From: a virus | Direction: 5' to 3' (one strand) | Virus record (IMG/VR): IMGVR_UViG_3300048501_000005 | Location: 1-37,029 of that record | Length of the DNA stretch: 37,029 nucleotides | Shown: one piece after another, positions 11,765 to 13,270 of the stretch | Numbering within the stretch: the first letter of the stretch is position 1 | How the letters are laid out: the number at the start of each line of letters is the position of its first letter | The notes under the pieces: generated by a model | The model's database searches: none | Seen by the model: only the letters and a program-made list of their open reading frames with translations | What the model was told of the DNA's origin: nothing | Program-made: the position numbers and the translations under genes

Positions 11765-12217
11765 TTACTCCTTTCTTTTAGCGATAGCCTTTTTCATTCC
11801 GGCGGCTTTTAATATCTTCTCGATCCAACCTTGACCATTGTTTCGGTCCATTTCTTCGATGATTTTTACAGCGTTCTCGTTGTATTCCTTGTCCACCTTG
11901 GTAGGTTTTTTAGGGAACAATTCGATAAAACGCTTGTGCTTTTTACGGTTGAGGTTTGCCTCAGCGTTCAGAAACGCATTTCGCGTCCAGGTTGTGTCCG
12001 AAATCAATTTATTCTCATGCTCTTTCCGGATGAACATCTTCTCTTTCTCGGTCAGCATGCCGAATTCAGCCGGTGTCATGTGAAAATGGACAACAAAAAA
12101 AGCCAGATCTTTCTCGTAAGAGAAATCCCTGGCTAATTCCGCGCGGCGTAAATCAGCTGGAGTAGGATTGTCGTTTTCAGGAAAATCGCTCTCAATGAGC
12201 TCTAGCGGAACATAAAC
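11765..12217 (-). CDS. Tail assembly chaperone, GT-type extension made by -1 frameshift
   Basis: The frame reached by a -1 slip near the end of the upstream chaperone gene stays open to 11765. It encodes LELIESDFPENDNP, then a charged helical region that continues without a stop into MTPAEFGMLTEKEK and ends in AIAKRKE. It has no ribosome binding site of its own: the first ATG in frame (12079) is preceded by sequence with no Shine-Dalgarno match. The position directly before the tape measure gene and the overlapping frames match the G/GT pair of lambda-like and Gram-positive siphophages. There the fused form binds the tape measure during tail assembly. The fusion would total about 246 aa. Confidence 0.75.
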   Translation of the reverse strand, partial: VYVPLELIESDFPENDNPTPADLRRAELARDFSYEKDLAFFVVHFHMTPAEFGMLTEKEKMFIRKEHENKLISDTTWTRNAFLNAEANLNRKKHKRFIELFPKKPTKVDKEYNENAVKIIEEMDRNNGQGWIEKILKAAGMKKAIAKRKE

Positions 12218-12504
12218 CCCAAGTCATCTTTCAACTTTTCAATGATCGCCATGTTTAAGCTGATCAATCCATTTTCTTCGACCACACCTTCAAACAATTC
12301 GAGTGCTTTTTTCTGCTTTACTGCCTCATTTGTTTTTTCTTCAACTAAACCGAAAGAAAATAGCTGTTCAATCAGAGAGTAGCGAAGAATCCCATTATTC
12401 TTTGTGATTTCTCCAATCACACTTGTATTAGCAGTCAGCTCAATCGTCTTCAGTTTCTGTTTGTTAAATTTCAATGTATAGCTTACGCCGTCAACTTCAA
12501 ACAT
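12202..12504 (-). CDS. Tail assembly chaperone (G-like, zero-frame product)
   Basis: 100 aa, small and helical, beginning MFEVDGVSYTLKFNKQKLKT. This N-terminus is typical of Gram-positive phage tail assembly chaperones. It lies between the major tail protein and the tape measure gene. The stop TAG at 12202-12204 follows a GGGGTTT stretch by three codons, and the -1 frame then stays open for about 150 codons. The short product is expected in excess, with the fusion as the minor form. Confidence 0.8.
   Translation of the reverse strand: MFEVDGVSYTLKFNKQKLKTIELTANTSVIGEITKNNGILRYSLIEQLFSFGLVEEKTNEAVKQKKALELFEGVVEENGLISLNMAIIEKLKDDLGFMFR
12214..12220 (-). promoter_or_regulatory. Candidate -1 ribosomal frameshift site
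   Basis: The zero frame reads TTG GGG TTT ATG TTC CGC TAG. At G-GGG-TTT the Gly tRNA can move back one base onto GGG with perfect pairing; the following codon then becomes GTT. The heptamer is not the full XXXYYYZ consensus. A small stem (CGCT with AGCG, and CTC with GAG around ATT, positions 12187-12207) begins about six bases downstream and could stimulate the slip. The -1 frame first opens only a few codons earlier, so any slip must occur in this short stretch. Confidence 0.6.
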
Positions 12505-12534
12505 AGTTCCACGCTCCAGTTATTTATTAAGCCA

Positions 12535-12795
12535 CTAGCCAACCGTAATGATTGCTGTAGCCGCTTTTGTGCCGTCCTCTGTTGAGGTAGCGGTGATTGT
12601 TGCCGTTTGTCCAGTTGTCGCTGTTTCCAGGACTGTGACCAGACCATTTACGTCCACAATTGCTACTGCAGCAGCGCTTGTTGTCCAGGTAACGGTATCG
12701 ATATCGGTCCCTGTTACCGTAGCGACTAGTTGTTCCGATTCGCCAGGTAGGACGGTAGCGCTAGCCGGCGCCACCGTTACCATTATTGGCTCACT
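12535..12795 (-). CDS. Ig-like (Big_2) C-terminal extension of the major tail protein, reached by +1 frameshift
   Basis: Encodes about 86 residues forming one bacterial Ig-like group 2 domain: ASATVLPGESEQL, then VTWTTS, VDVNGLVTVL, ATITATSTEDGT and a final AAIITVG-like strand. It has no plausible start of its own: the first ATG (12781) has no ribosome binding site. It is the direct +1-frame continuation of the major tail protein across CCC TAG. Ig-like domains on tail tubes are known to decorate the virion and bind surface carbohydrates weakly, and in Listeria phage PSA one is added by the same kind of proline-codon slip. The fused protein would be about 244 aa. Confidence 0.78.
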   Translation of the reverse strand, partial: SEPIMVTVAPASATVLPGESEQLVATVTGTDIDTVTWTTSAAAVAIVDVNGLVTVLETATTGQTATITATSTEDGTKAATAIITVG

Positions 12796-12799
12796 AGGG
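12794..12799 (-). promoter_or_regulatory. Programmed +1 frameshift site at CCC-TAG
   Basis: The major tail protein ends ACA CCC TAG and the next zero-frame codon is TGA, so tandem stops slow the ribosome. The Pro tRNA on CCC can re-pair with CCT one base forward, after which AGT GAG CCA continues in the open Ig-domain frame. This is the arrangement described for Listeria phage PSA structural genes. Confidence 0.72.
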
Positions 12800-13270
12800 T
12801 GTAATAGTGGACGCGGCATCAGCCAGGTCAACCAATTCACCAGTGCCTTGTAATCCGATTGTGTACGTTACCGCATCATCGTAAGGCGCTTCGATTGGGT
12901 AGCTATTCAGGATAGCCAACCCGCCGAACAGGTCTTTAGAAGCTTTAATGTTCACGACCTTGATTAAAATAGGTTCCCCTGAAGCATATGCCTCTTTCAG
13001 CGCGGTATGCGTTTCGTCCGAACGAACATAAATACCGTCATTATCGATGGACCATTCATTCAGGCCACCGATAAATTCTTTCCAACCGTTAGAGTTTTTT
13101 GAAGTCACTTCGAAAGTGTCCTTATCGCGGTTGATTGTCAGTCCTTGTTGACCGGCAACGGCCAAAAGGGTGAAGGTTGTACTGTTGTATAAAGCTAACA
13201 CCAAATCTTTCCCGGCAATTGCACTGGTTAATGCGCTTGTAAGTTGTGTGTACAATGGATCTGCTGGCAT
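12794..13270 (-). CDS. Major tail protein (tail tube), short form
   Basis: 158 aa. Forms the stacked hexamer rings of the tail tube. The protein is rich in beta strands and begins MPADPLYTQLTSALTSAIAGKD, with LAVAGQQGLTINRDKDTFEVTSK, as in TP901-1/phi13-type tube proteins. It lies between the tail terminator and tail chaperone genes. Ribosomes that do not slip end at TAG after ITP; those that shift +1 add an Ig-like domain. The gene starts 12 bases after the stop of the tail terminator gene. Confidence 0.9.
   Translation of the reverse strand: MPADPLYTQLTSALTSAIAGKDLVLALYNSTTFTLLAVAGQQGLTINRDKDTFEVTSKNSNGWKEFIGGLNEWSIDNDGIYVRSDETHTALKEAYASGEPILIKVVNIKASKDLFGGLAILNSYPIEAPYDDAVTYTIGLQGTGELVDLADAASTITP

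Follow-up and report, generated by a model that had tools for sequence, protein, structure and literature searches.

Probable +1 frameshifting at a CCC-stop junction that would append an Ig-like domain to the tail tube protein of Trichococcus phages

The extension of phage tail proteins by a +1 frameshift at a CCC codon that stands directly before the stop is a known phage trick, for which gp17.1* of the Bacillus phage SPP1 and the Tsh proteins of the Listeria phages A118 and A500 are real precedents. The nearest well-described case is that of SPP1, in which a CCC to CCU shift at a CCC UAA site provides the tail tube protein with an 87-residue FN3 extension with an Ig-like fold, so that two products of one start, gp17.1 and gp17.1*, are found in tails in a ratio of 3:1 (PMC6316719). 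Under laboratory conditions the phage can do without the gp17.1* extension (PMC6316719, PMC8718954). SPP1 also has a second, putative -1 frameshift in its tail chaperone genes (PMC6316719). A review that records CCC_UGA for the phages PSA, A118 and A500 describes phage Ig-like domains as being reached by +1 shifts, by -1 shifts or in frame, probably via the chance landing of mobile domains (PMC5009743). In lambda gpV and T5 pb6, the Big_2 domain is located outside the tail tube (PMC8718954).

The locus described here is found in IMG/VR record IMGVR_UViG_3300048501_000005, the 37,029 nucleotides of which (hereafter the window) represent a prophage-like Trichococcus virus. The tail tube gene (12794..13270, minus strand) begins with an ATG at 13270, is preceded by a strong Shine-Dalgarno (SD) sequence (AGGAGG, pairing -10.7 kcal/mol) and encodes a short product of 158 aa (16.9 kDa). 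This protein is a member of the Pfam Phage_tail_2 family (PF06199; E 1.5e-29, with 103.1 bits against a curated cut-off of 23.8) and of phrog_1407 in PHROGs (major tail protein, E 6.5e-41). The tube family profile matches PDB chain 8qhs_A, named 'Antigen A' (E 2.9e-61), and the chains of that name that are akin to the family by sequence are those of 8qhs, 9j1j and 9j1k. A structure model of the tube protein was too poor (pLDDT 56) and was left out of the structural reading.

Direct reading of the 3' end of the gene gives ATT ACA CCC TAG TGA, confirming the tandem stops of the original prediction. The predicted +1 shift site and the in-frame TGA that follows it occupy 12791..12799 on the minus strand (CCC 12799-12797, TAG 12796-12794, TGA 12793-12791), and re-pairing one base forward would move from CCC to the CCT at 12798-12796. 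A tail tube gene that ends in CCC directly before its stop has the arrangement of +1 CCC-stop recoding of the SPP1 and A118 kind. CCC is the rarest proline codon in the window, at 10% of proline codons, and is the last codon of one of its 50 genes only, the tube gene.

The +1 frame is open from 12795 for 86 codons (SEPIMVTVAPASATV...AIITVG) and is closed by a TAG at 12537-12535 (12535..12795, minus strand). The Big_2 Ig-like domain that had been recognised in this stretch was recovered by a Pfam search (E 2.8e-10), and the Ig part, when predicted alone, takes up an Ig fold (pLDDT 96) that matches, among solved structures, the Big_2 domain of a glucanase, the T5 tail tube pb6, the phi29 capsid protein and lambda gpV. 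The length of the open frame is by itself weak evidence for coding; about 2% of sequences of the same composition would contain an 86-codon open frame by chance. A chance open frame is nevertheless excluded by the Big_2 match taken together with the recurrence of this layout in two further prophages and with selection that is specific to the frame.

These two prophages belong to T. palustris (L018), in which the tube gene ends ACG CCC TAG TGA, and T. patagoniensis (L019), in which it ends ACA CCC TAA TGA. In both, a Big_2 domain equal in length to that of the window follows in the +1 frame, and the stop after CCC thus interchanges between TAG and TAA among the three Trichococcus phages. CCC itself is retained in all three, in a tube gene that is near synonymous saturation (dS 1.1 to 1.5). 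In the Ig frame, where synonymous sites are saturated, dN/dS is 0.044 between the window and T. palustris and 0.025 between T. palustris and T. patagoniensis, and in the other two frames of the Ig stretch the ratios for the same pairs are at least 1.9. For the window and T. patagoniensis, a close pair here with 20 differences, the Ig-frame value is 0.19. Substitutions are concentrated at third positions of the +1 frame (47/66 and 51/70; p 4e-10 and 2e-11). The comparison covers three sequences, two of which share a recently exchanged Ig cassette, and indicates that the Ig frame, and no other frame, is under strong purifying selection; judged by dN/dS and third-position bias in these three sequences only, the +1 extension has been kept by selection in the relatives.

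How does the locus compare with those described previously? SPP1 and the window both combine a CCC-stop tube gene with a +1 Ig-like extension but differ in the domain (FN3 versus Big_2) and in the stop (UAA versus UAG), the comparison being with the published description of SPP1 rather than with its tail protein sequence. The Tsh proteins of A118 and A500 have the CCC-stop, the +1 Big_2 domain and the gene order in common with the window, but their tube belongs to phrog_820, has no Pfam match and is encoded with AAA or AGA before CCC. All 62 A118-type (phrog_820) tube loci, which are close relatives and not 62 independent cases, have CCC as the last codon before the stop and encode an Ig-like domain in +1; the stop is TGA in 58, TAA in four and TAG in none. 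The original prediction had pointed to the TAG followed immediately by TGA at this locus. The UAG is a real but modest difference, but tandem stops do not define the locus, since 13 of the 62 A118-type genes have TGA TGA (the other 49 do not).

The prediction had also likened the site to that of PSA, a comparison that holds for the slip but not for the Ig tail. PSA Tsh resembles the window in having ACA CCC before the stop and an extension in the +1 frame; in PSA, however, the stop is TGA, the tube belongs to phrog_117 and the extension has 24 residues without a Pfam domain, and PSA was rejected as a precedent for the Ig domain on that account. The PSA tsh gene (L030, 3283-3291) reads ACA CCC TGA, and the (AAA) CCC_UGA given for all three Listeria phages (PMC5009743) has an AAA that fits A118 and A500 only.

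Lambda gpV and T5 pb6 are, like the window's product, tail tube proteins with a C-terminal Big_2 domain, and the predicted Ig fold matches both; in these phages, however, the domain is in frame and is therefore carried by every subunit. By analogy, the Ig domain would lie outside the tail tube in the Trichococcus phage too. Most members of the Phage_tail_2-type tube family have no Ig domain and ordinary stops, but apparent Ig-like or FN3 domains are found in frame in L060, L193 and L026 (from sequence, and for L060 also from alignment); such an extension is therefore tolerated on this tube.

Several other extensions came to light amongst these sequences. Tube relatives L069, L076, L077, L078, L085, L092, L098 and L103 have an in-frame C-terminal extension of ~107 residues that is of another type (...YPSYGEVISQTSWDG...IMIIETDADGKALKAGVATVT...). 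The tail protein of Enterococcus phage KEN03 (L180, annotated at 1204-1893) has an in-frame Ig-like domain and ends TAG TAG, after which the -1 frame reads an FN3-like start (VVEAPTELSASDISEDSVTLTWK) over 23 codons. In three phage contigs of 82-90 kb (L209, L210 and L226), a Big_2-like stretch at around position 1499 follows a 312-codon ORF and is in the -1 frame relative to it; the ORF ends AAG GTA AAG GCG TAA, a possible site of -1 recoding. Among 395 genomes of the host's order, 18 contained a tube relative, and in these no out-of-frame Ig domain was found next to a tube relative outside Trichococcus; searching with a profile of the Ig domain likewise returned the Trichococcus CCC-stop junctions and no further ones.

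The domain had been said to possess neither a start nor a ribosome binding site of its own. A start codon is in fact present: the sole ATG near the beginning of the frame (12781..12783, minus strand) is the fifth Ig codon and is a possible reinitiation codon, replaced by GTG in both relatives. The second part of the claim fared better. SD pairing before this codon is very weak (-2.7 kcal/mol in the window, -2.7 and -1.9 kcal/mol in the two relatives) compared with most of the window's genes, which lie between about -8 and -15 kcal/mol. Judged from predicted pairing, there is no credible ribosome binding site ahead of the Ig frame, a coupled restart being still conceivable.

The main rival to a frameshift is accordingly one in which translation terminates at TAG TGA and begins anew at the ATG/GTG lying 10 nt downstream, yielding a free 82-aa Ig domain. 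We consider this improbable. All three sequences do have a start codon at this position, and the first strand of the model begins at the ATG/GTG residue, so that the free domain could fold, but the weakness of the SD is compounded by the lack of conservation of the stronger start, ATG. Furthermore, the residues encoded upstream of the ATG/GTG (S/N-E-P-I) are retained in the Ig frame back to CCC in the three sequences, and reinitiation leaves the constancy of CCC as the last codon unexplained.

Pattern searches of two Trichococcus genomes identified tRNA-Pro with the anticodon UGG only, although an unusual isoacceptor could escape the pattern. It is established for sites of this sort that tRNA-Pro(UGG) is a poor reader of CCC and is able to re-pair on CCU. 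Downstream of the site, a 10-bp hairpin with the loop CGGCTA is predicted at 12752..12777 (minus strand), beginning 19 nt 3' of CCC. The window and T. patagoniensis both form it in the predicted fold; in T. palustris it is weaker and is absent from the minimum-energy fold. We do not accept it as a frameshift stimulator, 19 nt being a long distance and the hairpin being shared via the exchanged cassette. No Rfam match was obtained at the slip site, and no conserved stimulator was found there among the three Trichococcus sequences.

Programmed +1 frameshifting from CCC to CCU at the stop, placing the Ig domain on a fraction of the tail subunits, is the best explanation for these observations, as originally proposed, and we put its probability at roughly 0.87. 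A fraction of ribosomes finishing the tube gene would pause with peptidyl-tRNA-Pro(UGG) on CCC and UAG in the A site; the tRNA would then shift forward by one base to pair with CCU, after which the ribosome would go on in the +1 frame through the 86-residue Big_2 domain. One start would in this way give rise to two tail proteins, of 158 aa and 244 aa, both of which would be built into the tail, the Ig domain facing outwards and possibly touching the cell surface. The sequences themselves give the layout of the junction, the conservation of the site, the coding constraint on the Ig frame, its predicted fold and the want of a credible ribosome binding site; the slip itself, its frequency, the presence of the extended protein in virions and any role in adhesion are inferred from these. 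Frameshifting is favoured because the CCC-stop and +1 Big_2 layout is common to three Trichococcus phages, because purifying selection is confined to the Ig frame, because the rare CCC has been kept despite saturated synonymous sites, and because tRNA-Pro(UGG) was the only one found and no credible SD precedes the Ig frame. It is favoured too by the occurrence of the same arrangement throughout the A118-type loci and, on experimental descriptions, in SPP1 (PMC6316719) and the Listeria phages (PMC5009743), and by the in-frame Ig-like domains on tubes of this family (L060, L193). The fusion would have a mass of 25.3 kDa, about 8.4 kDa more than the short form. Digestion of the predicted fusion with Glu-C or Asp-N would release the junction peptides LVDLADAASTITPSE and DAASTITPSEPIMVTVAPASATVLPGESEQLVATVTGT, respectively, whereas the tryptic junction peptide would exceed 100 residues and would probably be missed in mass spectrometry.

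Two further rivals are very unlikely. In the first, an Ig domain that was once in frame has been displaced by the loss or gain of a base, through decay or sequencing error. In-frame Ig-like fusions are indeed known in the tube family (L060 and L193 again), but the layout is common to three different Trichococcus phages and the out-of-frame Ig domain is under strong purifying selection; on the selection data, decay is rejected along with a chance open frame. RNA polymerase slippage, in which the frame would change in transcription and not on the ribosome, would give an identical fusion protein, but the junction has nothing longer than CCC in the way of a single-base run, and ribosomal +1 shifting has been described at CCC-stop sites (PMC5009743, PMC6316719).

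The history of the Ig domain differs from that of its surroundings. In a three-way alignment, 56 sites of the Ig domain group the window with T. patagoniensis and 8 with T. palustris; the corresponding counts are 34 and 34 in the tube gene and 20 and 84 downstream (Fisher p 5e-6 for the Ig domain versus the tube gene and 6e-19 versus the downstream DNA). The switches fall at 12783-12778, just after the slip site, and at 12506-12493, where the next gene begins, setting the outer limits of the exchange at 12493..12783 (minus strand). These site patterns indicate that the Ig cassette was exchanged in one piece, the slip site remaining on the tube side. A single event of this kind is not evidence that breakage is favoured at the slip site. 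A tentative and rather doubtful extension of this is that the CCC-stop junction serves as a docking point, with +1 Ig cassettes that move between related phages and abut the slip site on their left, the tube being protected and the stop free to vary, UAG included.

A probable -1 frameshift is also present nearby, at G GGG TTT (12220-12214, minus strand), joining two tail chaperone ORFs of the gpG/gpGT type (12504-12202 and an ORF ending at 11765, minus strand); the heptamer is retained in L018, L019 and L008. The predicted recoding pair of the window, +1 in the tube and -1 in the chaperone, is also that of SPP1.

What is new here is the UAG stop, the Phage_tail_2-type tube, the interchange of stops among relatives and the exchange, as a unit, of an Ig cassette whose left boundary adjoins the slip site. 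A literature look-up found no earlier report of CCC UAG as a shift site, though it could not exclude one, nor any of CCC-stop recoding in this tail-protein family. In automated annotation the long form is easily overlooked, or the Ig stretch appears as a gene in its own right, as happened in the records of A118 and A500. With the Trichococcus phages, CCC-stop recoding extends to a further tail-tube family and to a third stop codon, and an Ig cassette is caught in exchange right at the slip site. Taken together, these phages suggest that a slow proline codon and a pause at the stop may count for more than which stop codon, or which release factor, is involved.
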